This document shows positions 20,068 through 36,669 of a stretch of DNA of 46,665 nucleotides, piece by piece. Positions within the stretch are counted from its first letter, which is position 1, and each line of letters opens with the position of its first letter. The notes beneath the pieces were generated by a model. It saw only the letters and a program-made list of their open reading frames with translations, was not told the origin of the DNA and searched no databases. The translations under genes and the position numbers were made by a program. This DNA comes from Nitrospira sp. GTDB taxonomy: Bacteria > Nitrospirota > Nitrospiria > Nitrospirales > UBA8639. The DNA lies in NCBI GenBank assembly GCA_028819435.1, contig JAPPLK010000022.1, forward strand, positions 1-46,665, written 5' to 3'.

Positions 20068-22356
20068 TCACGTCTTCCGGTCGATGGCGATCAGCAGGGG
20101 CGGGAGAAGCAGGAAATCACAGATCAGAGCGAAGCCGATCGTGAGTGCAACCAGGAGACCGAGCATCAAACTGATCGCGAACCCCGACGAAGCGAATACC
20201 AGGAAACCGAGTACCAGGATCATGGTTGTGACAAACAGCGGATGACCCACTGAACGAAAAGTGGTTTGCACCGCCTCGGACGCGGAAAGACTTTCCCGAC
20301 GTCCTTTCAGGTACTTGGTCATGAAGTGAATCGTATCGTCGACGACTGTGCCGAAGGCGATCGCGGTCACGAGAGAACCGGCGTTCCCCACCTCGACGTA
20401 GAGATATCCCCAGACGCCGAAGGCCATGGCTGCGGGGATGAAGTTGGGCACCAGGCTGATGAGGCCGAGGCGCAGGCTTCGGAAAATCCCGATCAGGATC
20501 AGCGAAATGAGAGCCATGGCAATGACCGTGCCCCGCAACATGTTTTTGTTGTTGCTGATGGTCAGGTGGGCGAAAGCGAGGCTGTACCCCGACCCCTCGG
20601 TGGCGAGTTCCGGCCCGTTGGCGCGGAGCCACTCCTGTCCGCGTACGTCGAGTTTGCGCTGCTGCTCGGCACTCAGTCTGCGCATGGTGACGGTCATGCG
20701 CGTGGCAGATCGGCCGACGTCGATACGGTTGTTGAGGTCACTGCCGAAGGGAACCGAAAGCTCGTAGAGCAGCAGGTACTGCGCGGCAAGCTCGGAGTCT
20801 TCGGGCAGCCGGTAGAAGGCCGGGTCGTCGCCGTGCATGTTTTTGTTGAGGCGCTTCATGATGTCTGGAAAGGACTGGACGTGCGCGACTTCCGGCTGGG
20901 CGCGGTACCATTCGGCGAAAGCGTCGATCTTGCGCAGGTAGCCGAGATCGGTGATGCCGCCATCGCGCCCGGCACTCAGGGAGTATTCCAGGTTTTCCAT
21001 GCCGGTCAGATTGTCGATGACAAAGTCCGTATCGCGCCGAAATTCATAACGCTCATCCAAATACTGCAACCAATTGTCCGTCAACTCGATGCGGGGAATG
21101 CCCGCCGCCAGGACAATTGCCACGGCGGTCATGGACCAGAGCAGGAGCGTGCGGCGTGCGACGACGAAGCTCCCCAAGCGATCAAAGAAAGCGGAACGCC
21201 GGGCGCGTACGGGCTTTGCGCGCAACGGCAAGACCAATAACAGTGCCGGCAGAAGCGTCATGGAATACATGAAGGCGCAAAGCACGCCAAACGCCACGAA
21301 ATTGCCGAGGACCCGAAAAGGCGGAGAGTCCGAGGCATTGAGACTGAGGAATCCGATCATCGTCGTGACCGTCGTGAGGAACACCGGCCAGGCATTCTCG
21401 CGCAGGGATTCGGCGACCGCCGTGTCCCTGTCCAGATCTTGCCTCATGCCGGACATCGTCGTCGCGATGACGTGGACCGAGTCTGCGATGGCGAGCGTCA
21501 TGATGATAATCGGAATGCCGGAGTTGGCGGCGTTGAGCAGCGTGCCGGTCCAGCCGACGAGCCCCATGGTGGAGGCGATGACGAAGATGAGCATGGCGAC
21601 AAGGGACAGCATGCCCAGCAGGGAGCGCAGAAGGACGGCGGCGACTGACACAATGACGATCAATGCGACTGGCGCAAGGATCCGCATATCGTCGTCGACT
21701 GCGTCTGTCATGATGCGGTTCACGAAGACGTCGCCGGTCAGGTGATAGGTAATATCCGGATGGTCCGCCCTTGCCTTGTCCAAGAGGCCGCGGACGTAGT
21801 CGATAACCTCGGTCAGCGCAGCTTCAGGGTTCTCGGGGAAGGCAAAACTGATGACCAGTCCGGCCACGCGCCCGTCGTGGGAGACGAGCCGGCCCGCGAC
21901 ACTGATCTCGCCTAACGCAATTCCCTTGATCCGGGCGAGGTCGTTATCATTGAGCGACCCGGCGTCTTCCACGAGCCGCTCGACCTTCAAGTCGTCTCCG
22001 ACCGCTTCGGTGTGGTTGTAATTGACAAGAGAGTCGACCCTGGTGGACCAAGGCACGCGCCACGCGGCCTCGGTCAACTCTTCGACGGCGCTCAGCGCTT
22101 CGCGGGTGAAGACCTCACCCCCTTTGGGCGCCACTGCGATCAATGCCACGTTGGTTGCGGTATAGGTATCCTCCAAGGCTTCGAATGCCACGCGATGAGG
22201 ATTGTCCTTATCGAAGTTGTCGCGCCAGTCGTTGGAGACGGTAATGAATTGGAGTCCGGCTGCCAGAACCAGCATGACCGCCACGGCCAATGCGAGGACC
22301 AGCCATCGGTAGCGCAATATGAATGTCGTGTAGCGGTCCAGCAGCAGGGAGGTCAT
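20068..22356 (-). CDS. RND-superfamily permease (HAE3/MmpL type), candidate sterol transporter
   Basis: A 762-residue inner-membrane permease with two similar halves. Each half has one helix, a large periplasmic loop and five further helices. The first half starts RYRWLVLALAVAVMLVLAAGL and carries IADSVHVIATTMSGM; the second carries the charged intramembrane motif GTVVDDTIHFMTKYLKGRRES. It is about 100 residues shorter than HpnN hopanoid transporters. It is divergent from the sterol operon across a 473-base spacer and is followed by a TPR gene, the context in which BstA, an RND sterol transporter, was found in Methylococcus. Substrate is inferred. Confidence 0.88.
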   Translation of the reverse strand: MTSLLLDRYTTFILRYRWLVLALAVAVMLVLAAGLQFITVSNDWRDNFDKDNPHRVAFEALEDTYTATNVALIAVAPKGGEVFTREALSAVEELTEAAWRVPWSTRVDSLVNYNHTEAVGDDLKVERLVEDAGSLNDNDLARIKGIALGEISVAGRLVSHDGRVAGLVISFAFPENPEAALTEVIDYVRGLLDKARADHPDITYHLTGDVFVNRIMTDAVDDDMRILAPVALIVIVSVAAVLLRSLLGMLSLVAMLIFVIASTMGLVGWTGTLLNAANSGIPIIIMTLAIADSVHVIATTMSGMRQDLDRDTAVAESLRENAWPVFLTTVTTMIGFLSLNASDSPPFRVLGNFVAFGVLCAFMYSMTLLPALLLVLPLRAKPVRARRSAFFDRLGSFVVARRTLLLWSMTAVAIVLAAGIPRIELTDNWLQYLDERYEFRRDTDFVIDNLTGMENLEYSLSAGRDGGITDLGYLRKIDAFAEWYRAQPEVAHVQSFPDIMKRLNKNMHGDDPAFYRLPEDSELAAQYLLLYELSVPFGSDLNNRIDVGRSATRMTVTMRRLSAEQQRKLDVRGQEWLRANGPELATEGSGYSLAFAHLTISNNKNMLRGTVIAMALISLILIGIFRSLRLGLISLVPNFIPAAMAFGVWGYLYVEVGNAGSLVTAIAFGTVVDDTIHFMTKYLKGRRESLSASEAVQTTFRSVGHPLFVTTMILVLGFLVFASSGFAISLMLGLLVALTIGFALICDFLLLPPLLIAIDRKT

Positions 22357-22829: not shown

Positions 22830-23990
22830 ATGACCTCAGGGTTGAACGCGTCTGCCGGCTCTTCGACGCCGCCCGTTTTCGTGACCGGTGCGGCAGGACA
22901 CGTAGGCGCCAATCTCGTGCGCCGGCTGCTGGACGACGGCGTGCGGGTCCGGGTCTTGCTGAGACACGAAGACAACAACGAAGGCTTGGAAGGTCTTGAC
23001 GTTGAACGCAGGTTTGGTGATATCCGGGATTTGGATGCAACCCGGCGTGCGCTTGAGGGCTGTCAGGGCGTCTACCACGTCGCGGCCAAGATCTCAACCA
23101 TCGAAGGCAATCGCGCTCATCGCCGGGAAGTGTTCGACTGCAACGTCGTCGGCACCCGTAACGTGCTGCAAGCGGCGCGAGAGGTAGAAGCCGGCCGGGT
23201 GGTGGTGACGGGCTCTTTCAGTGCGGTCGGGTACGATTTGGATAATCCGTCCGCGCCCGCCAACGAGACGATGCAATTCTATCCCATGGAGCGCACGATG
23301 CCGTACGAGCGCAGCAAGTCGCTCGTCGAGCACGAGTGCTGGCGCGCCGCGGCGAAAGGCCAGGACGTCGTGGTGGCAACGTGCTGCGCCGTGGTCGGAC
23401 CCGCCGATTTTTTCCCCTCACGGTTGGGAAGAGCCTTGTGTGACTACAGTAACCGCAAGCTCCATGCTTACGTTGACGGCGGGTTCGAGTTCGTCACGTC
23501 GCGGGACATTGTCGAAGGACACCTGTTGTGTATGCGCCAAGGACGCCAGGGCGAAAAGTACATTTTCAGCAGCGAGTACAAAACCATTTCCGAGATCCTG
23601 GACTTGTTTGAGGAGGTCTCGGGCGTTCCGCGACCGTGCCGGCGTATTCCGGCCAACGTGATGCTCGTTTTTTCCGAAATGACGAGCTTTTACCTGAGCC
23701 GGTTTCACCCGAGCTTTCCCCAGCGTTTCACCCCAGGCGCCATTCGCCTGTTGCGCAAACGCTTACACGCCGACGTCGGTAAAGCGAGACGGGATCTCGG
23801 CTATCAGCCAACCAGTATCCGCGCCGCGGTTCATGAGGCCTACGCCTTTCACTACCACCGCAACGCGATCACGAATCCATTTGCCAAACGCCCGTGCGTG
23901 AACGTCACGAGGCAAAACGCGATAAGACAAGAGGAACGTCTTATGCTGAACGAAGGTATACGGATCACTCCCGACGGAGGCCAGATATGA
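22830..23990 (+). CDS. 3-beta-hydroxysteroid dehydrogenase-type NAD(P) oxidoreductase (SdmB-like)
   Basis: A 386-residue short-chain (extended) dehydrogenase. The Rossmann motif GAAGHVG is in VFVTGAAGHVGANLVRRLL; the catalytic pair is YERSK; VVGPADFFPS and FVTSRDIVEGHLLC are typical of the 3-beta-HSD/NSDHL branch. In bacterial sterol C4 demethylation the Rieske enzyme SdmA oxidises the C4 methyl and SdmB removes it as CO2 while forming the 3-ketone, then reduces it. The C-terminal 35 residues (after PFAKRPCVNV) are an unusual tail. It is the first gene of the sterol operon; its TGA overlaps the ATG of the Rieske gene (ATGA). Confidence 0.87.
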   Translation: MTSGLNASAGSSTPPVFVTGAAGHVGANLVRRLLDDGVRVRVLLRHEDNNEGLEGLDVERRFGDIRDLDATRRALEGCQGVYHVAAKISTIEGNRAHRREVFDCNVVGTRNVLQAAREVEAGRVVVTGSFSAVGYDLDNPSAPANETMQFYPMERTMPYERSKSLVEHECWRAAAKGQDVVVATCCAVVGPADFFPSRLGRALCDYSNRKLHAYVDGGFEFVTSRDIVEGHLLCMRQGRQGEKYIFSSEYKTISEILDLFEEVSGVPRPCRRIPANVMLVFSEMTSFYLSRFHPSFPQRFTPGAIRLLRKRLHADVGKARRDLGYQPTSIRAAVHEAYAFHYHRNAITNPFAKRPCVNVTRQNAIRQEERLMLNEGIRITPDGGQI

Positions 23991-25087
23991 ACCTGGTATC
24001 GGGTGCCCCACCCGACTTCAAAGAAGCCCGCAACCTGCGTCAGCAAGCGCGGGCCGCGGGTATGGACCCGAATTATTGGTACGCGGTTGAAGAAGTGCGC
24101 CGGGTCAAACCCGGGACCGTGGTCGAGGTCATTTTCTGGAAGCGTTCCATTGCGCTGTTTCGTGGAAAGGACGGCTCGTTTCACGCGGTTGAAAATCGCT
24201 GTGCGCATCGCCAACTCAAACTCTCCATGGGCGAGGTTCAAGGCTGCCGGCTCACGTGCGCGTACCACGGCTGGCAGTACGATGAAAACGGACGCTGTGT
24301 CGAGATTCCCCATGACCGCTACGGACGGGGTCTTCCGACGCTTCCGCTCAGAACCTATCCCGTGACGGTGCGTTACGGTCTGGTCTGGTTGTTTCCCGGA
24401 GACCCGGAGCAGGCGGACCTGCGCCGTATCCCGGATATCCCCGAACTTGAGGGACCCGAGCGATGGGCCTGCGAGCCGCTGGTGTTCACTTGGTCGGCTC
24501 ACCACTCGATGGTGATCGACAACGTGAGTGACTTCACCCACGCCCACCTGCATCGTCGGTACCGTCCCTTCGAAGAAGGCGCCGTCCTCACCCGTTGTGA
24601 GACCGTCGGCGACGACGTGCACGTGGCCTACAATACAAAGGTCGGACGCGGGCGTATCTCGGGATTGTTTGTCGATCACGGCCACGTCGACACCACGTAT
24701 ATGGATCTTTGCTATCAATACCCCTACCAGTGGTCGAACACCGATGACGCGATCAAGCACTGGCTTTTTGTCCTGCCGATTGATGAGCGGACCACCCGGG
24801 CGTTCTTCCTGTTCTATTTCAAGTCGCTGAAGTTGCCCTTGCTGCCGGTACGTATTCCCCGTTTTGCCATGAACGCAGTGCTGAAGATCTCGAACCGTGT
24901 GCTCATCGGCCCATTACTCGCCCAGGACGGCGTTGCGGTCGAAGCGGAGCAGCAGGGGTACGAGAGACATTGGGACGCGCCTCCCATCGAGTACAATCCG
25001 GCGGTACGGGCTTTTCAAAACGTGACCGTGCGCAAGTGGCGTGAGTACATGGCGCGCGGGACGGAGAACGGCGATGCCGGGACCTGA
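23987..25087 (+). CDS. Rieske non-heme iron oxygenase (SdmA-like sterol C4 demethylase)
   Basis: A 366-residue oxygenase. The Rieske [2Fe-2S] ligands are C72-x-H74 and C91-x2-H94 (in CAHRQ and CAYHGW). The mononuclear iron site is in DNVSDFTHAHLHRRY. The layout is that of the PaO/KshA-like class, to which SdmA of Methylococcus belongs. With the SdmB-like dehydrogenase upstream the natural role is oxidation of a sterol C4 methyl group to the acid. It needs a ferredoxin and reductase, which are not in the island. The start at 23987 overlaps the previous stop by four bases; the longer in-frame start at 23894 lies inside the upstream gene and is rejected. Confidence 0.88.
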   Translation: MNLVSGAPPDFKEARNLRQQARAAGMDPNYWYAVEEVRRVKPGTVVEVIFWKRSIALFRGKDGSFHAVENRCAHRQLKLSMGEVQGCRLTCAYHGWQYDENGRCVEIPHDRYGRGLPTLPLRTYPVTVRYGLVWLFPGDPEQADLRRIPDIPELEGPERWACEPLVFTWSAHHSMVIDNVSDFTHAHLHRRYRPFEEGAVLTRCETVGDDVHVAYNTKVGRGRISGLFVDHGHVDTTYMDLCYQYPYQWSNTDDAIKHWLFVLPIDERTTRAFFLFYFKSLKLPLLPVRIPRFAMNAVLKISNRVLIGPLLAQDGVAVEAEQQGYERHWDAPPIEYNPAVRAFQNVTVRKWREYMARGTENGDAGT

Positions 25088-26180
25088 TTTCCACTTCCCA
25101 TGGTCCGCGCTGTTGTCGGGCGGCGCCCTGCTCGAGGCGGCAGCCATGGTGTCGGGGTTTATCGGCTTGCTGTTTCTGGGTTCGATGCTGCTGCCCGGAA
25201 GACGGGTGACGGGACCGGAGGTCGAAGGACAATCCACCACCTATAAACTGAACGGCCTTGCCTTGTTCCTGGCGACCGTGATTGTGGCCTGTCTCGCCCA
25301 GGTCTCCGGCTGGTTTTCTCTTTCCGTGCTGCACACCCACTTTGCCGCGTTGTTCGTGGTGACCAACGTCTTCGCATTCGCCTTATCCGGCTGGCTGTAT
25401 TGGGGGAGAGCCAGGCCCCGGGATGCATCGCCGGGACCGTGGTGGCAGGGGTTCTTCTTTGGCGTGGAACTGAATCCCGCCTGGTTCGGGGTGGATTTGA
25501 AGTTGTTCAGCTACCGCCCTTCTCTGATCGGCTTGGTGTTGCTCAACGCATCGTTCGCCGTCGTGCAGTATGATACCTACGGTGAATTGACCCTGGCGAT
25601 GGTGCTCTACCAAGTCTTCACCTTCCTGTACGTGCTCAACTACTTCCAGTTCGAACACGGAATGATCTATACCTGGGATCTGGGCAGTGAGCGTTTCGGA
25701 TGGATGTTGATTTGGGGAGACTACGTGCTGGTGCCATTTTTCTACTGTATCGCCGGCTGGTGGCTGATCCACCCATCGGAATCGCTGTCTCCCGTCGCCG
25801 TGACCGCGACCGTCCTCTTGTTCGTCCTCGGCTTCTGGCTCTTCCGCGGTGCCAATGAACAGAAGCACCGGTTCAAGCGTGACCCGGGCATCAGGATTTG
25901 GGGGCAACCCGCCCAATCCCTGGATGGGCGCTTGCTGGTCTCCGGATTCTGGGGCATTGGACGGCATCTCAACTATACCGGTGAAATCTGCATCTACCTC
26001 GCGTTCACCCTGACCACCGGGTTTGCATCCTGGGTGCCCTACCTGTTACCCGCGTGGCTGGCGGGCCTGTTGTGGCATCGCTCGAGACGTGATGAGCGTC
26101 GCTGCCACGCCAAGTATGGGGAGTTGTGGGGCCGTTATACACAGCGGGTACGTTTTTCGATGCTGCCGTTTGTCTATTGA
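25074..26180 (+). CDS. ERG4/ERG24-family sterol reductase (likely C-14 reductase)
   Basis: A 368-residue polytopic membrane protein. The C-terminal half has the clear ERG4/ERG24 signatures: LLVSGFWGIGRHLNYTGE and LLWHRSRRDERRCHAKYGELWGRYTQRV, plus FSYRPSLIGLVLLNASF and the EQKHRFKRDP stretch before them. Members reduce the C14, C7 or C24(28) double bond of sterols with NADPH. The CYP51-type gene next door leaves a C14-C15 double bond, so C14 reduction is the most economical role. The start is ATG 25074, 14 bases inside the Rieske gene. Confidence 0.9.
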   Translation: MPGPDFHFPWSALLSGGALLEAAAMVSGFIGLLFLGSMLLPGRRVTGPEVEGQSTTYKLNGLALFLATVIVACLAQVSGWFSLSVLHTHFAALFVVTNVFAFALSGWLYWGRARPRDASPGPWWQGFFFGVELNPAWFGVDLKLFSYRPSLIGLVLLNASFAVVQYDTYGELTLAMVLYQVFTFLYVLNYFQFEHGMIYTWDLGSERFGWMLIWGDYVLVPFFYCIAGWWLIHPSESLSPVAVTATVLLFVLGFWLFRGANEQKHRFKRDPGIRIWGQPAQSLDGRLLVSGFWGIGRHLNYTGEICIYLAFTLTTGFASWVPYLLPAWLAGLLWHRSRRDERRCHAKYGELWGRYTQRVRFSMLPFVY

Positions 26181-26193
26181 GAGGAGGACAAGG

Positions 26194-27603
26194 GTGGAAC
26201 ACCTGTCTCACGGTATGGCAACCGTGCGTTCGGCAGGGCCGTCGCCGAACGCGGCCAAAACCGTTCCCGAACTCATGGGTGGGTGGCCGCTGGTCGGTCA
26301 CCTGTTGGATTTTCTAAAGAATCCGGTCTCGATGTTGGACCGCGGCTGGCGCGAGCAGGGGGAACTCGTCCGTTTCCGGCTCGGTCCCCGCGAGTTTGTG
26401 CTCTTTACCGGACCCGAAGCTCACGACTGTTACTTCAGGGCACCGGAGGATCAGCTAAGCGCCAAAGCCGTGTATCAGTTCACGGTCCCCATCTTTGGTC
26501 GTGGCGTGGCTTACGATGCCTCCCCCGAGATCATGGACGAGCAGCTTGGGTTTCTGTTTCCGGCCCTGCGCGAAGCCGCGATGCGCCGGTATGCCCGCGT
26601 CATGTTCGAGGAGACGATGCAGTTGGTCGACGAACTCGGCGAGGATGGGACAGTCGATCTGCCGCATGCACTGAACGAGCTTACCGTCAAAATCGCCAGT
26701 CGTTGTCTTATTGGAGAGGAAGTCCGGGAGCAAGTGGACTCGGGTTTTGCCGAGGCTTATCACGACCTGCAGAACGGCATCAACGTCCTGGGATTTTTTC
26801 TCCCCAGACTGCCTACCGCGGCGCACCGGAGTCGAGACCGGTCCCGCCGCAAAATAGCCGAGATCTTCAGCCGGATCATGAAGGCGCGCCGGCTTTCCGG
26901 GGCTGCGCCCGACGATTTCTTGCAGGCGCTCATGCATGCCCGCTACAAGGATGGCCGCGCCTTGAACGACGACGAGATAACCGGGATCCTGCTGACGGCG
27001 TTGTTCGCGGGGCAACACACCAGCGCGGTGCTCGCGACGTGGACCGGTCTGGAACTGCTGAGAGCATCCTCCTACCTGGCAAAGATAAGAGACGAGATGC
27101 AGGACGTCTACCGCGAGACGGGAACCGTGAGCCTCGAAGGTCTCAAGAGACAAGTGGTGCTGGAAAACGCCGTACGTGAAAACGAGCGGCTGCACCCGCC
27201 GTTGATTATCCTGGTCCGCAAGGTGCTCAAACCCTTGCGTTACGGGGATCATATCGTGCCTGCAGGTACCCTGGCCGTGGTCTCGCCGGCGGTCGCTCAC
27301 CGGTTGTCCCACGTGTTTGCCGACCCTGAGCGGTTCGCCCCGGAGCGTTTTGCCCCTCCCGCATACGAGCACAAACAACACCACTACGCCCTGATCGGTT
27401 TTGGCGGCGGCAAACACCGATGCATGGGCGAACATTTTGCTTACCTGCAAATCAAGGCGATCTGGACCGTGCTGCTCGATCGCTTCGACTTTTCTCTCGA
27501 CACGGCGTTCCCTGCCCCGAATTACAGTAGCTGGGTGACGGGTCCCAAGGCGCCATGCCGTGTCCGCTACCGCCGCCGTTCGCACGCGAGCCTGCTCCGA
27601 TGA
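26194..27603 (+). CDS. cyp51: CYP51-type cytochrome P450 (sterol 14-alpha-demethylase)
   Basis: A 469-residue P450. The I-helix motif is AGQHTSAVLATW, very close to the AGHHTS of CYP51; ExxR is E329-R332 in ENERLHPP; the heme cysteine is C410 in FGGGKHRCMGEHFAYLQIK. The PERF box appears as DPERFAPERF. CYP51 removes the 14-alpha methyl group of lanosterol-type sterols in three oxidations. A GTG at 26194 with GAGGAGG seven bases upstream is the best start; a longer version from 26023 would overlap the reductase gene. Its TGA overlaps the ATG of the fused cyclase gene. Confidence 0.92.
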   Translation: MEHLSHGMATVRSAGPSPNAAKTVPELMGGWPLVGHLLDFLKNPVSMLDRGWREQGELVRFRLGPREFVLFTGPEAHDCYFRAPEDQLSAKAVYQFTVPIFGRGVAYDASPEIMDEQLGFLFPALREAAMRRYARVMFEETMQLVDELGEDGTVDLPHALNELTVKIASRCLIGEEVREQVDSGFAEAYHDLQNGINVLGFFLPRLPTAAHRSRDRSRRKIAEIFSRIMKARRLSGAAPDDFLQALMHARYKDGRALNDDEITGILLTALFAGQHTSAVLATWTGLELLRASSYLAKIRDEMQDVYRETGTVSLEGLKRQVVLENAVRENERLHPPLIILVRKVLKPLRYGDHIVPAGTLAVVSPAVAHRLSHVFADPERFAPERFAPPAYEHKQHHYALIGFGGGKHRCMGEHFAYLQIKAIWTVLLDRFDFSLDTAFPAPNYSSWVTGPKAPCRVRYRRRSHASLLR

Positions 27604-30600
27604 ACAACGCCACTGTTGGGCGCTACGACGTCGTCATCGTCGGCGCGGGCCCGGTCGGCAGCTTATGCGCGCTTGCTCACGCAAGGAAGGGCGCCCGGGT
27701 CGCCCTGCTCGAAGCCAATCCCAACGTTTCCAAGCGGATGGCGGGAGAATGGCTGCATCCGCCTGCCGTGCGGATGTTGCGCGAATTCGGCATCAGGTTC
27801 GATACGCAGTCCCGCAGCACCATCGGTCAAGGATTTGTCGTGTTCCCTGAAGACGGATCGGAGCCGATCGCGCTTCCCTATCCGGAAGGACTCCACGGTG
27901 TGGCGTGCGAGCATGCGGAGATCGTCTCGAATCTGCGCGAAGCGATCAAGGACGAGCCGGGCATCGACTTCATGACCCACGCGCGGGTCCGTTCGGTGGA
28001 AGACACGCGGGTCACGTTTTCCTGTAACGGCACTGAGCAATCCATATCCGCCGCGCGAATTGTCGGCGCCGACGGTCGGGCCTCAATCGTGCGTCGATCG
28101 TTGGGCTTATCGATAAAGCCGAAGAGCTGCTCGCAGATGGTGGGTGTGACGTTAAGAGGGATGAGTTTGCCGTTGGAGGGTTATGGGCACGTGTTGTGTG
28201 GTGGACCGGGTCCAGTGCTCATGTACCATCTGGGAGAGCATTGCGTCCGGGTCATCGTCGATGTTCCATCGGGCAATTGTGCATCCGGTGACTGGATTGG
28301 CTTCCTGTCGGACTCATATGCCGGCGTGTTGCCGGAAACGCTCAGGCCTGCATTTGTCGAAACGCTACGAGCGGGGCAATACCAGGCTGCGGCCAATGAA
28401 CTGAGCCCGCGCGTCACGTACGGGAGCCCACGTCGAGTACTGATCGGCGATGCAGCCGGGCACTACCATCCCATGACGGCGGTGGGAATGACCCTCGGTT
28501 TCGGCGATGCTCTGACGCTGGCCGAGGGCAAGGACTTCCACGACTTCACCATGAAGCGTTTCCAGGCGACCCACACGCCGGAACTCCTCGCTATGGAGCT
28601 CTACGAGGTCTTTGCCGACCACCGGACCGAGGCGGTGGCGGTCAGACACGAGATCTACCGGCGTTGGAGGTCAAGTTCCGCGTTCCGTAACCGGACCATG
28701 TCTTTACTCGCCTGTGAAGATATATCGATAGTCCGTATGAGTTTCGCGGGTGGCACGATGGTGTTCCGGGCGGTTGCCGGGGCGATTCCACGATCCTACG
28801 ACCAGTTCGCTTGGCGTCGGGCCCTCGAGATGGTTTATGCACTCTTCGGTCGTCTTTTGTGGCTCCTGCGTGGCGTCATACAACTGCGTAAGGCGAAAGG
28901 CAGAGGCCGAGAAAAAGACGAACGAATTCGAGATACCTTGGCCCATGCGCTTCTGGTTTCCATGCCATCGAAGGTGGACGACCCCCGGCCCGTCCACCAC
29001 CCGAGGGTGAGTGTGTCACCCGACGCGGGTCCGGCGTTGAGGAGCGCAAGCGCGCGCCTGTTGAAGCTTCAAGGTGAGGATGGCGCCTGGGAAGGCGAGA
29101 TGGTTTGGTGTCCCATGCTCACCGCACAATACGTGCTGCTGCACTACATGATGGGCCGGCCGCTCGAACCCGGCCGGCGCCGTCGCGTGCTGCGCTCCTT
29201 CGAATCCACCCGTCTCGAAGGAGGCCTATGGAGTCTGCACGAGCACCCGCCGCCCAACCTGTTTGTCACCACCCTGGTGTACGTTGCGGCGAGATTACTC
29301 GGTATTGAACGGGATGATCCGTTGATCGAGCCGGCTGGCCGATTCCTGCAAGCCGAAGGGGTGCTCGGTATCCCGAGCTGGGGGAAATTCTGGCTGGCGC
29401 TTCTCAATCTCTACGATTGGCGCGGGGTCAACGCCATTTTGCCGGAACTGTGGGGCTTGTCGCGCCGGATACCGTTACATCCCTCAAACTGGTACTGCCA
29501 TACCCGGCTGATCTACATGGCGATGGCGGCAATTTATCCACGTCGGTTCCGAACGCCGGTCACGCCCACGATCGCCTCGTTGCGAGAGGAACTGTTTCCC
29601 CAGGGGTTTGCCAACGTCGATTTTTCCGCGGGCCGCAATCGCTTGCGAGACGCCGACCTCTACGCACGCCCCAGCGTCTGGCTCCGGGCCGGATACGAGT
29701 TGACACGGGTATTTGAACGGTTCCACAACACACGTCTGCGCGCCCGCTGCGTGGACGCGCTCATCCGGCAGATAAAATGGGAACTGCAAACCACCAGCCA
29801 TACGAGCATCTCTCCGGTCAGCGGGTTCCTCAACGTCCTGGCCTTATGGCTGCGTGATCCAAACGACGCCGACTGTCGTCAGGCGCTCGCGAAGCTGGAT
29901 GGCTGGATCTGGGAGGATGAAGAGCGGGGCGCTCGAGTCACCGGCGCGAGAAGCAGTTCGTGGGATACCGGCTTCTCCCTACAAGCCTTGGCCACGGTGC
30001 CCGAGTTCGACGGGGTTCAACCGGCTCTCCGGCAAGGAGCCGGCTTCCTGTGTCGGGAACAGGTCGGCACCAGTTTCGAAGGGTTTCGCGAGGCATATCG
30101 GGCCGATCCGAAAGGCGGCTGGTGTTTTCCCGGGGGATGGCACGGCTGGCCGGTGAGTGATTGCACCGCGGAAGCGGTGCAGGGCATTCTCGCCGCCGAC
30201 CCCAAGGCCGTCAGCGAGACGGCGCTCAGCGATGCGGTTCAATTCATGCTGCGTAGCCAGAACCGCGATGGCGGTTTTGGCAGCTATGAAGCGCGACGCT
30301 CCGCGTTTGGTCTTGAGTGGCTGAATCCGGCTGAAATGTTTGGCGACTCGATGACCGAGCATTCCTACGTCGAGTGCACCGCGTCTTGCCTCGGGGCGTT
30401 CGCCGCTTGCAAGGAGTCCTTCCCGCACATTACGGACCAGGCGGTGTCGGACGCGATCTCGAAGGCTGACGCCTGGCTTCGCCGGACCCAGGCAAACGAT
30501 GGGTCATGGCGCGGCGTCTGGGGCGTTCAGTTCATCTACGGCACCTTCTTCGGTATCAGGGGGCTGGTTGCCGCCGGGGCCCGTCCGGGTGATTCGGCGC

Positions 30601-30965
30601 TACGTTTAGCCTGTCAATGGCTGCTGGACCGCCAGCAGAAGGACGGGGGATGGGGTGAACACCACAGCGGTTGTCTGACCGGTCGATACGTTGCCCATAA
30701 TGAAAGTCAGGTCATCCAAACCGCATGGGCGTTGATTGCGCTCCTTGAGGCGGGTGATTCGAACTGGGCCGCGATTTCGCAGGGGGCCCGGTTTTTGCTC
30801 GACACGCAGGACGCAGATGGGGCATGGCCGAGGCAAGACATGGCCGGGATCTTTTTCCGTACGGCGCTGTTGGATTACGTCCTGTATCGGCAGTATTTTC
30901 CCCTGCACGCGCTCGGTCTCTACGAGCAGCGGCGCCGGACCAGGCTTGACCTGTCAGGTTCCTGA
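27600..30965 (+). CDS. Fused squalene epoxidase - oxidosqualene cyclase
   Basis: A single 1121-residue frame with two enzymes. Residues 1-430 are squalene monooxygenase: FAD motif GAGPVG (15-20), GEWLHPPAVRML, VGADG (D158-G159), GPGPVLMYHLG and GDAAG (283-287) followed by HYHPMTAVGMTLGFGDA. A hydrophobic stretch at about 408-428 may anchor it. A linker of about 45 basic and proline-containing residues follows. Residues 478-1115 are oxidosqualene cyclase: HPSNWYCHTRLIYM, the catalytic VSDCTAE with D854 (DCTAE, not the DxDDTA of hopene cyclases), NPAEMFGDSMTEHSYVECT and five QW-type repeats. The product should be a 3-hydroxy tetracyclic sterol made from squalene. The ATG overlaps the P450 stop (ATGA). 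In known bacteria the two enzymes are separate genes. Confidence 0.95.
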   Translation: MNNATVGRYDVVIVGAGPVGSLCALAHARKGARVALLEANPNVSKRMAGEWLHPPAVRMLREFGIRFDTQSRSTIGQGFVVFPEDGSEPIALPYPEGLHGVACEHAEIVSNLREAIKDEPGIDFMTHARVRSVEDTRVTFSCNGTEQSISAARIVGADGRASIVRRSLGLSIKPKSCSQMVGVTLRGMSLPLEGYGHVLCGGPGPVLMYHLGEHCVRVIVDVPSGNCASGDWIGFLSDSYAGVLPETLRPAFVETLRAGQYQAAANELSPRVTYGSPRRVLIGDAAGHYHPMTAVGMTLGFGDALTLAEGKDFHDFTMKRFQATHTPELLAMELYEVFADHRTEAVAVRHEIYRRWRSSSAFRNRTMSLLACEDISIVRMSFAGGTMVFRAVAGAIPRSYDQFAWRRALEMVYALFGRLLWLLRGVIQLRKAKGRGREKDERIRDTLAHALLVSMPSKVDDPRPVHHPRVSVSPDAGPALRSASARLLKLQGEDGAWEGEMVWCPMLTAQYVLLHYMMGRPLEPGRRRRVLRSFESTRLEGGLWSLHEHPPPNLFVTTLVYVAARLLGIERDDPLIEPAGRFLQAEGVLGIPSWGKFWLALLNLYDWRGVNAILPELWGLSRRIPLHPSNWYCHTRLIYMAMAAIYPRRFRTPVTPTIASLREELFPQGFANVDFSAGRNRLRDADLYARPSVWLRAGYELTRVFERFHNTRLRARCVDALIRQIKWELQTTSHTSISPVSGFLNVLALWLRDPNDADCRQALAKLDGWIWEDEERGARVTGARSSSWDTGFSLQALATVPEFDGVQPALRQGAGFLCREQVGTSFEGFREAYRADPKGGWCFPGGWHGWPVSDCTAEAVQGILAADPKAVSETALSDAVQFMLRSQNRDGGFGSYEARRSAFGLEWLNPAEMFGDSMTEHSYVECTASCLGAFAACKESFPHITDQAVSDAISKADAWLRRTQANDGSWRGVWGVQFIYGTFFGIRGLVAAGARPGDSALRLACQWLLDRQQKDGGWGEHHSGCLTGRYVAHNESQVIQTAWALIALLEAGDSNWAAISQGARFLLDTQDADGAWPRQDMAGIFFRTALLDYVLYRQYFPLHALGLYEQRRRTRLDLSGS

Positions 30966-31122: not shown

Positions 31123-31860
31123 TTAGTATCCCAGGATGCTGTAATTGCCGTCGATAATCAGGCGGATCGAGACATATAACCCCAGCAGCGCGCACAACAC
31201 CCAAAAAGCGTTGATCGCAAGGATGTAGACGTACAACTCGCGCCGGCTGATCCGGGTTTGCCGTTTGGCGATGAAGAAGCTGACCCAGTAGACCGACGTC
31301 ACATAGGTCCATTGCCAGAACGCCATGACCCCGAGAATGCCTGTAAAGAGAGCGGGCAGGAAATCGACCGTATACGCCGCGTACAGGACCAGTGATGGAA
31401 CCGGAGTCACAAAGCCATTGGCAATATCCGCATTGTAGCCGAACGTCAGGCGGTCCGCATAGGAGTCATCGTACTGGGAGTAGGCCGCCCAGACGTCGGC
31501 CCAGAGCGTCGGCGACAATGCCTGTGTCAAGGGGACCTTCTTTGAGATAAAGAACTCGAAGGCCGGAGTCCGGCCGGTTTCACGGCACCGTGCACGCCAA
31601 TATTCGGTGCGCGTCCTGATATGGTCCGGTCGAAGGAACAGGCATATCTCCCAATAGCAGATCAGCAGGTTGATCGAGAAGAACAGGCTCAAAAGGGCGT
31701 GGAGGGCGTTCAGATCCTCGTGAACGTAATACCGCGTACCGATGCCGAGCATTGCAAGGATTGCGACGATCAGCGCCACGAACAGGCCTACCGGTATTGT
31801 CAGACGAGTCTGGTCTGCGTCCTGTTCGCGAAGCGCTCGATCAGCGCGGGATTCGGGCAT
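31123..31860 (-). CDS. Polytopic membrane protein, possibly EBP/EXPERA-like
   Basis: A 245-residue protein with about five hydrophobic segments (LFVALIVAILAMLGIG, ALLSLFFSINLLICYWEICLF, VLYAAYTVDFLPALFTGILG, YVTSVYWVSFFIA and YILAINAFWVLCALLGLYV). The stretch LWADVWAAYSQYDDSY and the late INAFWVL resemble the spacing in emopamil-binding protein (sterol delta8-delta7 isomerase), where LW..YA.GDSRY and MNALWLVLPG occur. The first catalytic His and the second Glu of EBP are not at the same place, so this is a weak likeness. ATG 31860 follows AGGAG; it is 22 bases behind the FAD oxidoreductase gene, in the same operon. Confidence 0.65.
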   Translation of the reverse strand: MPESRADRALREQDADQTRLTIPVGLFVALIVAILAMLGIGTRYYVHEDLNALHALLSLFFSINLLICYWEICLFLRPDHIRTRTEYWRARCRETGRTPAFEFFISKKVPLTQALSPTLWADVWAAYSQYDDSYADRLTFGYNADIANGFVTPVPSLVLYAAYTVDFLPALFTGILGVMAFWQWTYVTSVYWVSFFIAKRQTRISRRELYVYILAINAFWVLCALLGLYVSIRLIIDGNYSILGY

Positions 31861-31882: not shown

Positions 31883-33247
31883 TCAGTTCTTCGCTTTTCT
31901 GAACCCCCAACCATACAGGATACTCCCGTAATAGTTGAAGGACCGCCTTGCCACGGGGTCGTCGAAGGGATAATCCGCACCGATCTGCGTTGCAGCGGCG
32001 AGTCCGCTGACAAAGCAGGTTTCCTGGCTGTTGATCAGCACGTGGGCGCCGCAGTGCCACGTCCGTTTCTTGCCTTGAATGAAGCGGAACAAAGGAACGA
32101 GCCAAGCCACGTGGCGCACGTCATGGACGACGTGCTGAAACCACCATCTTCCGATAATCTTTTTTTCATCGATTCGGCTGATCGGATTGTAGGTTACCAG
32201 GCAGGGCTTGTCAGACCTGTTGGCCCACGGCTGCTGGTTGTGCATGATGTACGTGATTTCATAGTTGTCCGGCCTGGCGCCGTATTGTTCTATGTGGTTG
32301 CTCCGCGTTGTCAGGGGTTTCACTTCGTTATCCGGGAGAACTGAGGAGTCGGAGTGGACGATCGTATGGTTGTGGAGTTCGCTCTCGTAACGTATTGACG
32401 AGAGGATGTAACGCTCCAGTATCGTGGGTTCGTCGAGCATCATCAGCGTCTGGTTTGCATTGCATGCAAAGACCACCTCGTCGAACGTCTCCTTGACGCC
32501 GTCCTCGTCCTCGACCACGACTTGCGACGACTGGCGGTGTACTTTCCGGACGGGCCGGTTGAAGTAGATCTTGTCCCGGAAATTGGCGGACAGGTTCTCG
32601 TAGATGCGGCGTGTTCCCTGGTCCCACGTCTGCATGGGCGTGGCGGTTTCGATGTCAAAAAATTCCAGGTATCTCGTAAAGAGAGCCGCCGGCATATCGA
32701 ACACGTTTGTCGCCATCAGGAAGTTGACAAACATGGGCTTCAGCACCTTGTACCTGAAGTCACCGGAAAAGCCGCCCAGGTTCAGGACCGTCCGCATGCT
32801 GACGTAATTGAACGGATTGAGGGCGTTCAGAAATTTCGATTGGCAGCGACTCAACCAGCCGAACCAATGCAGCCGCCTCAGGAGTCGTTGAAACTTCGCA
32901 ATCTCGGGTTGGAGTTGCTCCCTGATGCCGGAGTCGAAATCGTGGGCATAGACGTGGCCGCGGTACTTCACACTGTAACTGAACCTGGTATCGAGCAACT
33001 CAATGCCGAATTTCTTCAGCAGCAACAGGACGTGGTGGTAGACAGACGGAATGCAAGCGGTGACGGAGATGTCGAAGGGAATGGTGCCGCCGTCATCCTG
33101 CGGCATATCGGCCGTAATGGCATTCCCGCCAATCCGGTCACGGGCCTCGAACAGCCGAAAGTCGAATCGGTCCGGGTGATGATGCAGCCCCCATGCAGCC
33201 CCCAGCCCGGATATGCCTCCGCCGACGATGGCTATGCGCCGCGGCAT
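31883..33247 (-). CDS. FAD-dependent amine-oxidase-like oxidoreductase
   Basis: A 454-residue flavoprotein. The dinucleotide fold is RRIAIVGGGISGLGAAWGL, followed by FRLFEARDRIGGNAITADMP, the second family motif. It resembles the COG2907 group of NAD/FAD-binding proteins often found beside lipid-modifying genes (cyclopropane synthase, DUF1365), more than the phytoene desaturases. The C-terminus CFVSGLAAATQIG is the usual FAD-contact segment. The substrate is unknown; given the neighbours, a sterol or other polyprenoid is likely. ATG 33247 (after AAGGACC) is preferred to the longer start at 33262. Confidence 0.8.
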   Translation of the reverse strand: MPRRIAIVGGGISGLGAAWGLHHHPDRFDFRLFEARDRIGGNAITADMPQDDGGTIPFDISVTACIPSVYHHVLLLLKKFGIELLDTRFSYSVKYRGHVYAHDFDSGIREQLQPEIAKFQRLLRRLHWFGWLSRCQSKFLNALNPFNYVSMRTVLNLGGFSGDFRYKVLKPMFVNFLMATNVFDMPAALFTRYLEFFDIETATPMQTWDQGTRRIYENLSANFRDKIYFNRPVRKVHRQSSQVVVEDEDGVKETFDEVVFACNANQTLMMLDEPTILERYILSSIRYESELHNHTIVHSDSSVLPDNEVKPLTTRSNHIEQYGARPDNYEITYIMHNQQPWANRSDKPCLVTYNPISRIDEKKIIGRWWFQHVVHDVRHVAWLVPLFRFIQGKKRTWHCGAHVLINSQETCFVSGLAAATQIGADYPFDDPVARRSFNYYGSILYGWGFRKAKN

Positions 33248-33372
33248 GGTCCTTGTCCCCACCCGTTGTCGTTGACTGCTGGACGGTCAACGCGACGTTC
33301 CTCACGCGGACTGATGTTTGGGAGACGTTGATATTCTTTCCCCCGTGTTCCGGTTTCATGGGCCATGGTACG

Positions 33373-35403
33373 TCAGACGGGCAATTTGCGTCTTTGCTCG
33401 GCGATTCGGAACTTCATCCTCTTGCTCGGAGACATCGACGGAAACGGGTTGAACCGGAGCTTGTAATTCGCAGGCGACAACTCAAGCGTAAAGTAATGCG
33501 CGACCATCAACAGGTTGACGGCCAGTTGCAGTTCCACCCACCGGAAGCCGAGGCACGTGTGCGTGCCAAGCCCGTATGGCGCGTATCCGGGATTGAGGTG
33601 CTCATTACACGGAGGCAGATAGCGATCGATGTCGAATGAGAAAGGGTTCGGGAAAACGTCTTCCATGTAATGTGGGGCCGTCTGCGCAATGCCGATGCGT
33701 GCTCCTACCGGCAGTTCGTAGCCTTCGACCACGCACGAGTTCATCACGTTGCGAATAGACATGGGGACGATGGGGTACATACGCATGCACTCCATGATGA
33801 AGCGGTTCGTGACGTCGCTCTCTGTCTTGGCGAAGCCCGCCTTATCCGGGTCTGCGCCGTCGAACAGGGCGTCAGCCTCGCTCCGGATCCGGCCGTAGAG
33901 TTCAGGGTGCGACGCCATGGCGTAGAGCGCAAAGGCCAACGCATCGCCGAGGTACATGCTGGCAAGCATGGGTGCCGAAAGAGAGAATCCCATGTTTGAC
34001 TCGGGGAGGAATTGCGGGTCGCTGGCATAGAGGCTAAGCAGGTCATCCACAAGGGTTCGCGGGCAACCAGCCCGCTGGGCTGGCGTGTGGACGTCCTGGA
34101 CCCTTTGTACCGCCGCGTCGATGGCCTTGGCTGGGCGTTTCATGTCCGGGGTGTGTAGCAGGAACTTGGGCAGGATCTTCGCGACGTGGGTGGTGAGCGC
34201 CCGCTCCTTGAACTTTATCAGGTCATCCACAACGTCTTGCGAATCTATGCTGAGAATGAGGGGTGATATTTGCGCATTGATCATGCGCCGGCACAGGTGG
34301 ACCGCGTACACGGAGGAACCCACCTTCCAATCCGCCATGAATGCACGGACGTGCCCGTAGAGAGGATTCAAGAGATTTTCCAGCCTTTCGCGGGAGTAGC
34401 CCGGTTGCATGGCCTTGCGTAGCCGGAAGTGCTCGGCTCCGTCGAGTCCGGGTATCAGCCCGGAGGCGCCGTAGACTTTCTCGATATCGGTGAAATAGTC
34501 CTTGGATTTCAGGTACAGGCGCCCGTTCCGGTGGACCCAGCGGTTGATTTTAGCCCCGGACAGGAAGATCATGGGTTCCTGGAACGGCGGGCGTATCTGA
34601 AATACCGGACCGTACTGTTTCGTCAGGTCTGCAAAGACCGCGGGAATGTTGCCCTTGCGCGATAACATATTGAGCACCAACTTTGGCAGAGAGACACCCG
34701 GAATTTTTTTCTTGGCCAGGCTGAAACGTCGAAACAAAGGGCCGACGAGATTGTTGGTCACTGCATGGGCTATGGAGCGGCCGATCAGGTCCATCTGGCA
34801 GATCAACTCTATGCGCTTTTCTAAATCCTCATCGAGTTGGAACATGAATCGAAAGATGTCACACGTATTGATGAGGCAAATAATGATGATGTCTCTGGGC
34901 TTGGGTATCGCGTTGGTATAGATACACTTCATGATACGCAACTTGATAAACTCATCTGCCGTAACGTCTATGGCTTTGCGGCCTAGTTCCATCTGCCAGC
35001 CGGTATGAGCCAGCGTCCAGAAATCGCCGTCGTGGTGTTCCAGGATCTTCAGGTCAACCAGGCGATCCAGACTCAAATCAATGATTGACTCCGCACGGGG
35101 GGCGAGCCGTTCGATCCAGAACTGGGCGTTCCGTTGAGTTGGTTCGTTTGCAATCTCTTTCAGAATGGGGTCCAGGACAGGAATACCCGTTTCGGTCTGG
35201 TCCACAAGGAACAGGGATTCCATGTCCGTGTCGATGCGTGACAGGAGGGAGAGTTCCGCTAGGACTGCCCCGATGACAGCGCAGTTCAAGTGCCAGCCGG
35301 GTACTTGATGAAAGTAACCGTTCTCCTCGTTGAGGAGCATTAGAATGAGCTCTTCCGGCAATATTAGTGGTTGGGTTGCCGAATCTTCTTTAGTAACAGC
35401 CAT
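33373..35403 (-). CDS. GPP34 (GOLPH3-like) domain fused to a cytochrome P450
   Basis: A 676-residue two-domain protein. Residues about 12-220 match the GPP34/GOLPH3 pattern: LILPEELILMLLNEENGYF, NCAVIGAVLAELSLLSRID, FLVDQTETGIPVLDPILKEI and SLDRLVDLKILEHHDGDFWTL. Residues about 245-670 are a P450: ExxR in FIMECMRMYP, the heme ligand C617 in YGLGTHTCLGFRW (Tyr for the usual Phe) and a P450-type AQTAPHYMEDVFPNPFSFDIDRYLPP. The I-helix lacks a clear AGxDT motif (MYLGDALAFALY), which could mean unusual oxygen activation. In eukaryotes GOLPH3 binds PI4P on membranes; here the domain may seat the P450 on lipid. ATG at 35403; an in-frame TTG directly precedes it. First gene of a minus-strand group. 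Confidence 0.85.
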   Translation of the reverse strand: MAVTKEDSATQPLILPEELILMLLNEENGYFHQVPGWHLNCAVIGAVLAELSLLSRIDTDMESLFLVDQTETGIPVLDPILKEIANEPTQRNAQFWIERLAPRAESIIDLSLDRLVDLKILEHHDGDFWTLAHTGWQMELGRKAIDVTADEFIKLRIMKCIYTNAIPKPRDIIIICLINTCDIFRFMFQLDEDLEKRIELICQMDLIGRSIAHAVTNNLVGPLFRRFSLAKKKIPGVSLPKLVLNMLSRKGNIPAVFADLTKQYGPVFQIRPPFQEPMIFLSGAKINRWVHRNGRLYLKSKDYFTDIEKVYGASGLIPGLDGAEHFRLRKAMQPGYSRERLENLLNPLYGHVRAFMADWKVGSSVYAVHLCRRMINAQISPLILSIDSQDVVDDLIKFKERALTTHVAKILPKFLLHTPDMKRPAKAIDAAVQRVQDVHTPAQRAGCPRTLVDDLLSLYASDPQFLPESNMGFSLSAPMLASMYLGDALAFALYAMASHPELYGRIRSEADALFDGADPDKAGFAKTESDVTNRFIMECMRMYPIVPMSIRNVMNSCVVEGYELPVGARIGIAQTAPHYMEDVFPNPFSFDIDRYLPPCNEHLNPGYAPYGLGTHTCLGFRWVELQLAVNLLMVAHYFTLELSPANYKLRFNPFPSMSPSKRMKFRIAEQRRKLPV

Positions 35404-35649
35404 CAACTTTATCTTCTTTGTATTTCCCCGGTGCCACCGGGTCCAGTTACCCTTGTAAGGATAGCCTTACGGCCTAGGCAGGGCAAGTCTTATTCTGAGT
35501 TGAAACAAGGCACAGGTTCGGGTAAGTAGTCGATTACTTCAACGTATCTACGCCGCAAAGGGCCAGGATGTCGGCTTGCAAAAACCTTGACTGGAACATT
35601 GAATTCTCTAAAATGCAGTGAGTTTTCAGAAAGGAATAACTTGGCATTC
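35404..35649. promoter_or_regulatory. Divergent spacer between GPP34-P450 and the reductase-like gene
   Basis: A 246-base spacer between divergent genes that must carry promoters in both directions. The AGGAA at 35632-35636 is a ribosome site for the plus-strand gene. No reliable promoter box or operator was identified. Confidence 0.35.
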
Positions 35650-36669
35650 ATGGATTCACGACGTGAACATGACGTGTTGATTATAGGTGGTGGACCCGCA
35701 GGGTCTACTTGCGCCCGATTCGCGAGAAAGCACGGTCTGAAGGTGGCCGTGATTGAGCGAACCGGCAAATGCCACGTGAAGAGGACCAGCGCGGGAATCT
35801 TCGATCATACCTGGCCCGCCCTCGAACTGTCGCCCCACGAATACCCATACCCAATGCGCTCACCCAATGCTTCCGTATTCAGAACCTTCAATAACGGCAA
35901 AGAATTGACGACGATGTTTAAGATTGTTGTGGACAAACTGAATCGATACGTCTATTTGCCCAATCGAGATGAATTTGACAATTGGTTGCTGTCATTAGCA
36001 AATCAGGCTGGTTGTATTGTCATTCGAGATCATGCCGTGCGACCCGAAGATATTGAGTTCAACAACAAGCAATATGCAGTTCGCGTCGGGAACGAGATCC
36101 ATACCGCGCCGTTTCTTGTCGGCGCTGCGGGCACCTTCTGTCCGGTATATCGACGATTTTTTAACAACGTGAATGCATGGCCCGGTCAAAGAACGCTTCT
36201 TACGGAAGCAGAAGTCCCTGAGCAGGAATACTGCGGCCCATCTTACGTCAGCTATTTTAACTTCATGGGTACCGGGGTATTCGGATGGACGTACATCATC
36301 GGTGACGGGAGGCTTCACATAGGCACGGCTCAATTGTCGAGACAACCAGAACTGAAAAAGAAAGACATACTGTTCGATGAGTTTGTGGACTTCATACGTT
36401 CGAAAGGGTACTTGGCACGCGACTTTGACCCCAAGCAATACCACGTGAGCGGTGGGATGATTCGAGCGTTTGCTAATCGTCCGATGACGACACCTGATGG
36501 AAGCTGCCACGTTATAGGGGATGCGGCGGGGCTGCTTCAGTCTGATTGCTATACGGGTATAACGAATGCCATCTACTCTGGCCGCTATTGTGCCGACGCG
36601 ATAGCCCAAGCTGAAACAAGCCCGCGTATCCGAAAGAATCTCAATCGATATTGGCAACTTGAATGTTGA
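35650..36669 (+). CDS. Geranylgeranyl-reductase-family flavoprotein, probably C-terminally short
   Basis: A 339-residue FAD protein. HDVLIIGGGPAGSTCARFARKHGLKVAVIER is the nucleotide-binding motif and HVIGDAAGLLQSDCYTGITNAIYSGRYCADAI the second FAD motif, as in geranylgeranyl reductases and related monooxygenases. Members saturate isoprenoid double bonds or hydroxylate lipids; a role on the sterol side chain or a polyprenol is possible. It ends about 30 residues after the second FAD motif, some 60 to 70 residues earlier than usual, and an open frame continues just past the stop. The start may be a TTG at 35641, which is better placed behind AGGAA. Base composition is clearly more AT-rich than the sterol operon. 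Confidence 0.78.
   Translation: MDSRREHDVLIIGGGPAGSTCARFARKHGLKVAVIERTGKCHVKRTSAGIFDHTWPALELSPHEYPYPMRSPNASVFRTFNNGKELTTMFKIVVDKLNRYVYLPNRDEFDNWLLSLANQAGCIVIRDHAVRPEDIEFNNKQYAVRVGNEIHTAPFLVGAAGTFCPVYRRFFNNVNAWPGQRTLLTEAEVPEQEYCGPSYVSYFNFMGTGVFGWTYIIGDGRLHIGTAQLSRQPELKKKDILFDEFVDFIRSKGYLARDFDPKQYHVSGGMIRAFANRPMTTPDGSCHVIGDAAGLLQSDCYTGITNAIYSGRYCADAIAQAETSPRIRKNLNRYWQLEC

Follow-up and report, generated by a model that had tools for sequence, protein, structure and literature searches.

A GPP34-cytochrome P450 fusion protein encoded beside sterol genes in a sponge nitrite oxidizer of the Ca. Nitrosymbion type

A 46,665-nucleotide stretch of Nitrospira sp. DNA (contig JAPPLK010000022.1; here called the window) encodes a protein in which a GPP34 domain, the family of eukaryotic GOLPH3, is followed by a cytochrome P450. 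The gene adjoins genes of a predicted sterol pathway. The locus raises the question of whether this fusion is a genuine gene and, if so, on what its P450 acts and what the GPP34 domain contributes. An earlier sequence-only reading of this DNA had proposed a lipid-guided oxygenase, and its elements are examined below.

Results

The fusion was found to be encoded on the minus strand at 33373-35403, with an ATG at 35403 and a stop at 33373, as a single open frame of 676 amino acids; the coordinates had been read correctly before, and the strand is supplied here. Pfam models placed (i) GPP34 at residues 15-215 (34759-35361, minus strand; 80 bits versus a cut-off of 29.1, and 83 bits in a search of the organism's own genome); and (ii) p450 at residues 242-659 (33427-34680, minus strand; 111.7 bits versus a cut-off of 22.8), with Cys617 and the EXXR motif at 538-541 intact, which upholds the proposal that the remainder of the protein is a P450 with heme ligand Cys617. 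The predicted model of the full-length protein had a mean pLDDT of 84 and a pTM of 0.74. No stop or frameshift was detected between the domains, whose common frame is intact in 10 of the 14 genomes of the window's genus and in all 80 loci fetched from elsewhere; thus, the fusion is not an assembly error. Of the remaining genus members, G004 carries a one-base frameshift inside the GPP34 domain, while G002, G008, and G010 were found to have no copy. A frameshift or chimera artefact is ruled out as the origin of the fusion by the intact homologues in independent assemblies, and eukaryotic contamination by homologues on bacterial contigs that include complete MAG chromosomes.

The distribution of the fusion was then considered at two scales. 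Among 396 genomes of the phylum, GPP34 matches above the cut-off were restricted to the window's genus. A scan of GTDB contigs identified 80 fusion loci, essentially full-length, at 58-90% identity and all open, which by record title span at least 13 phyla; searches of PLSDB, INPHARED phages, and IMG/VR for plasmid, phage, and viral copies found none. By title, the records of all 80 loci can be sorted into ten naming series, and the series names are consistent with symbiont projects on sponges or corals; one of them, 'Plut', we take to stand for the coral Porites lutea. The largest series (jk18x/p16x) is tied to Ircinia sponges by PMC9531527, which names jk18x bins. For the RHO, COS, and SB series, the names agree with the sponge hosts studied in PMC8163846 and with the I. 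ramosa MAGs on which PMC9531527 drew. The fusion is widespread among bacteria of marine sponges and corals, where the host origin of the 80 loci is in part read from the series names of the records alone. With regard to the window itself, the record 'Nitrospira sp. bin75' (G006, L056) belongs to the same genus, and GTDB genus bin75 corresponds to the sponge nitrite oxidizer Ca. Nitrosymbion (PMC11812461); the window organism is a sponge nitrite oxidizer of the Ca. Nitrosymbion type.

The GPP34 half was examined for its fold and for the residues by which GOLPH3 recognizes its lipid. When modeled alone (pLDDT 87.5), the domain adopted the GOLPH3 fold in the predicted structure, with Z scores of 19.6 to GOLPH3 (9qpq) and 17.9 to Vps74, compared with 3.9 for the best unrelated chain. 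A family profile matched GOLPH3 in the PDB at an E-value of 8.6e-18, while a single-sequence phmmer search of the PDB with this half gave no match. Profile match and predicted fold together bear out the assignment of the N-terminal region to GPP34. The lipid-reading role was a different matter. The residues with which GOLPH3 binds PI4P (R90, R171, and R174) are replaced by Ile/Val/Ala, Glu/Asp, and Ile/Val, respectively, across 82 aligned fusions. On this residue evidence, PI4P reading by this half is rejected, and the suggestion of lipid guidance by that route falls with the loss of all three basic positions. A related possibility, that the domain recognizes an anionic phospholipid in the way that GOLPH3 recognizes PI4P and so guides the enzyme, would accord with the retained fold and with Trp37, a residue near the pocket that is kept in 78 of the 82 fusions, but the same non-basic substitutions speak against it and make it very improbable. 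Conservation of the domain nonetheless equals or exceeds that of the P450 half, with mean identities to the window copy of 69% for GPP34, 66% for the P450 half, and 48% for the linker, indicating that it has some role. We infer that it may dock the enzyme on a membrane or on partner proteins by a means other than the known PI4P pocket. Standalone GPP34 proteins, about 40% identical to the fused domain, were also detected in the same genomes and are the likely source of this domain. Those with strong scores (L157-L162) occur in symbiont genomes of several phyla; to our knowledge, no function has been established for standalone bacterial GPP34 proteins.

The P450 half displayed the heme-loop cysteine, the EXXR motif, and the fold (Z 36) of the cytochrome P450 superfamily. 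The best matches of its predicted fold were CYP46A1 (cholesterol 24-hydroxylase, Z 36.4) and CYP51 (Z 35.5), and the closest solved relatives by sequence were bacterial CYP51 enzymes (125 bits with a family profile against the PDB). Its I helix departs from the canonical monooxygenase pattern. In the profile alignment, the CYP51 sequence A-G-H-H-T-S is matched by A-S-V/M-Y-L-G, such that Y484 takes the place of the acid/His residue and L485 that of the Thr; the register may be off by about one residue, and neither register restores an acid-alcohol pair. Tyr is present at this position in 82 of 83 sequences and Leu at the next in 69, with Gly-Asp directly after in 81. The earlier remark that the I helix lacks the usual acid-alcohol pair was therefore accurate, with Tyr-Leu in its place. 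The HT(S) signature of the CYP51 I helix is lacking, and the window protein scored far too low for a CYP152 peroxygenase (model NF053744, 11 bits versus a cut-off of 600). Because the proton-delivery pair is lost, the label of oxygenase is unproven, and the sequence makes an atypical route, by desaturation, peroxygenase action, or substrate-assisted chemistry, more likely than ordinary hydroxylation.

The missing pair could also mean that the P450 is no longer catalytic and that the fusion binds heme or a sterol as a carrier or sensor and interacts through its GPP34 half. The replacement of the proton relay by Tyr-Leu, with the pair missing from 82 of 83 sequences, would suit such a protein, but Cys617, E538, R541, and the glycines of the heme loop are the same in all 83 aligned homologues, and several P450s without the pair (CYP74, CYP152, and CYP8A1) are known to be catalytic. 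Selection on the P450 half likewise argues against a dead enzyme: dN/dS was about 0.1-0.35 in both domains, with synonymous change roughly three- to twelve-fold above amino acid change, and both halves thus appear to be maintained by purifying selection. We regard the loss of catalysis as improbable.

Two relatives of the P450 half retain an I-helix motif. A second GPP34-P450 fusion in G009 (L033:7060-9096), 30% identical, keeps Gly-Leu-His-Thr-Thr, which implies either that the fusion came before the pair was lost or that it has more than one origin. The nearest unfused P450 in the plasmid collection, 29% identical and located on a Planktothrix plasmid, has a canonical E-T pair (Gly-Gly-Met-Glu-Thr). 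As both have retained their motifs, the pair was probably lost in the main fusion lineage, where its absence is now fixed. The Planktothrix agardhii plasmid region (L179, NZ_LR882940.1 35000-62266) was itself found to hold a triterpenoid or sterol-type cluster of three Rieske proteins, several P450s, a squalene synthase, a squalene cyclase family protein, and an emopamil-binding protein. A split 'cytochrome P450' adjoining the Planktothrix gene had been suspected of being a GPP34 partner and proved to be a P450 fragment.

The neighboring genes of the window were annotated with Pfam and NCBIfam. Immediately downstream of the fusion on the same (minus) strand is an FAD enzyme of the amine oxidase fold (31883-33262; Pfam Amino_oxidase), which accompanies the fusion across phyla more consistently than any other partner, followed by an adjoining predicted membrane protein (31123-31830, minus strand) with no Pfam or NCBIfam match, which is kept beside the FAD gene in several genus relatives. 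Beyond these, on the plus strand, lie: (i) a squalene epoxidase-oxidosqualene cyclase fusion with a DCTAE motif (27555-30965; Pfam SE plus SQHop_cyclase N and C); (ii) a CYP51-like P450 whose start is probably inside the ORF (26023-27603; Pfam p450, 187 bits); (iii) a sterol C-14 reductase of the ERG4/ERG24 family (25041-26180; Pfam, 242 bits); (iv) an SdmA-like Rieske 4beta-methylsterol monooxygenase (23894-25087; NF052579, 405 bits, below the equivalog cut-off of 600); and (v) an SdmB-like protein/3beta-HSD (22830-23990; NF052578, 295 bits, below the equivalog cut-off of 600). An MMPL/RND transporter with similarity to the sterol-sensing domain follows on the minus strand (20068-22356; Pfam MMPL 110 bits, Sterol-sensing 36 bits). 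On the other side of the fusion is a divergent flavoprotein of the geranylgeranyl-reductase family (35587-36669, plus strand; TIGR02032 106 bits, below the cut-off of 158.8), the family to which the sterol reductase required for cholesterol production in Myxococcota belongs (PMC12004948). The epoxidase-cyclase gene is one frame of 1136 amino acids and was detected in nine more genus genomes at 81-91% identity, with one copy broken by a stop. These matches substantiate the earlier statement that sterol genes adjoin the fusion, and the predicted full de novo sterol pathway suggests that the window organism can make its own sterols.

The association with sterol genes was also apparent across phyla. 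Within 10 kb of the fusion, a sterol methyltransferase (PF08498) was found at 41 of 80 loci, a Rieske protein with the KshA C-terminal domain at 41, and an orthologue of the FAD enzyme at 39. At the 51 loci with full flanks (at least 8 kb on both sides of the fusion), the counts were 26, 30, and 28, respectively, with at least one of the three at 45 and none at six. The sterol methyltransferase is rare; genomes that encode it have one to three copies, and in seven of eight such genomes (1.6-3.8 Mb in size) a copy lies within about 3 kb of the fusion. The KshA-type Rieske protein, whose nearest solved relatives are 3-ketosteroid 9alpha-hydroxylases, was present at 58-63% identity in all 13 tested fusion genomes of other phyla. 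Of 26 genomes tested, 20 contain the FAD enzyme orthologue at 77-95% identity; it was absent from all three genus members that lack the fusion and was not found in three fusion genomes (G005, G414, and G419). MMPL transporters with sterol-sensing similarity were also frequent near fusions elsewhere. As the fusion loci seem to move together, they are not independent of one another. The window genome was found to have neither a sterol methyltransferase nor a KshA-type Rieske orthologue; the module is therefore only partial there, and the reaction cannot depend on C-24 alkylation everywhere.

The source of the sterol appears to differ among carriers. No good oxidosqualene cyclase match was detected in any of the 16 fusion genomes tested outside the genus, where the matches were weak (27-39% identity) and the readable motif was the hopene-cyclase DDTA; within the genus, G011 has the fusion but no oxidosqualene cyclase was found in it. 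Carriers of this kind probably act on sterols made by others, and most would use sterol from the host or from neighboring microbes, although a pathway of their own could have escaped detection through a cyclase that has diverged or a contig that is missing. The same observation bears on a different substrate, with the P450 half acting on a non-sterol lipid (a hopanoid, a fatty acid, or another triterpenoid) and the sterol genes lying nearby only through a shared transfer hot spot. In its favor, several fusion genomes have hopene-cyclase-like matches that are weak, or none, and the FAD partner is similar to LkcE and, less strongly, to chain 2b9w, a polyenoic fatty acid isomerase. However, the linkage is to a sterol methyltransferase and a KshA-type steroid Rieske protein, and the nearest P450s are CYP51 and CYP46A1, such that we consider a non-sterol substrate unlikely. 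Linkage and homology, as read from the genomes, support a strengthened sterol link, with the caveat that proximity to sterol genes is not proof of a substrate and that P450 substrates vary widely.

The fusion gene tree conflicts with the phyla. The window copy and two other Nitrospirota copies clustered with Alpha- and Gammaproteobacteria (support 100), while four further Nitrospirota copies were placed elsewhere; a single Nitrospirota clade was rejected (p-AU 0.011), with the group for this test chosen after the tree was seen. Some bins contain foreign contigs, and L095 and L064 were left out of a second tree. The fusion appears to travel horizontally between phyla together with sterol-modifying genes. 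Three side observations were made on individual copies. L094 and L095, from bins labelled Rhodospirillales and Chloroflexota, have near-identical fusion genes, probably reflecting a binning error. L050 is 74% identical to the window copy in GPP34 and 90% in the P450 half, and its synonymous change differs likewise, which suggests intragenic recombination. Short remnants of the KshA-type Rieske gene adjoin the fusion in genus members without the full gene (G006:C82:19251-19544, G009:C11:12375-12458, and G005:C22:38189-38305), as if the module had decayed after arrival.

Discussion

The best explanation of these results is that the fusion is a docked sterol-tailoring enzyme in a horizontally moving symbiont module, and we think it rather probable that it is a sterol-tailoring heme enzyme held near the membrane or its partners by GPP34. 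As such, it would be a heme-thiolate enzyme with a P450 half related to CYP51-like sterol P450s and a GPP34 half that attaches it to the inner membrane surface or to partner enzymes. It may tailor the nucleus or side chain of a sterol, the presumed substrate, in cooperation with the conserved FAD enzyme, and in many hosts it would also work with the steroid-type Rieske oxygenase and the sterol C-24 methyltransferase. In the window organism it would act beside a full de novo sterol pathway, and in most other phyla on sterol from the host or neighboring microbes. A bolder version can be put forward as a tentative and rather doubtful idea: a GPP34-docked P450 without proton relay, fed with peroxide or an oxidized intermediate by its FAD partner, might be a new class of sterol enzyme, borne on a horizontally moving cassette by which symbionts in many phyla remodel sterols that they do not make, giving sponge-specific sterol side chains or nuclei.

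Which organisms produce the unusual sterols of sponges, among them those that gave rise to the fossil biomarker 24-isopropylcholestane, is an open question. The fusion and its partners offer concrete, expressible candidates for missing oxidative steps of sponge sterol chemistry, point to modification by cyclase-free symbionts of sterols that other organisms make, and open the bacterial contribution to sponge sterols to testing. Earlier work on sponge symbionts found bacterial methyltransferases and clusters of steroid genes (PMC10070321 and PMC9531527). The Ircinia-symbiont steroid clusters of the latter and the sponge-symbiont SMT clusters of the former share with the present loci the sponge setting, the ERG24-CYP51-OSC order, SMT and SdmA/B-type genes, and transfer across phyla. 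The excerpts of both papers mention no GPP34 protein and no P450 other than CYP51, and, unlike the clusters they describe, the fusion module is also carried by genomes in which no clear oxidosqualene cyclase was found. Each of GPP34, P450, and sponge-symbiont sterol clusters was known separately, while no relevant report of a GPP34-P450 protein was found in the open-licence literature.

Of the known P450s, the CYP51 sterol 14-demethylases, and especially the CYP51-ferredoxin of Methylococcus capsulatus, come closest, giving the best PDB sequence match of the fusion (125 bits with the family profile) and a fold Z of 35. The identity is only about 20%, however, and the His-Thr pair of CYP51 is Tyr-Leu in the fusion; the Methylococcus protein carries a C-terminal ferredoxin, whereas the fusion carries an N-terminal GPP34, and the window encodes a separate CYP51-like P450 besides. 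The standalone bacterial GPP34 proteins of the same genomes, at about 40% identity to the fused domain, differ in having no P450 half. GOLPH3/Vps74 (PF05719) shares its family and fold with the GPP34 half (80 bits, Z 17-20), but the fusion is without the PI4P-coordinating arginines, is joined to a P450, and is found in bacteria, which have no Golgi. The fusion presents a GOLPH3 fold joined to an enzyme in bacteria, without the PI4P pocket.
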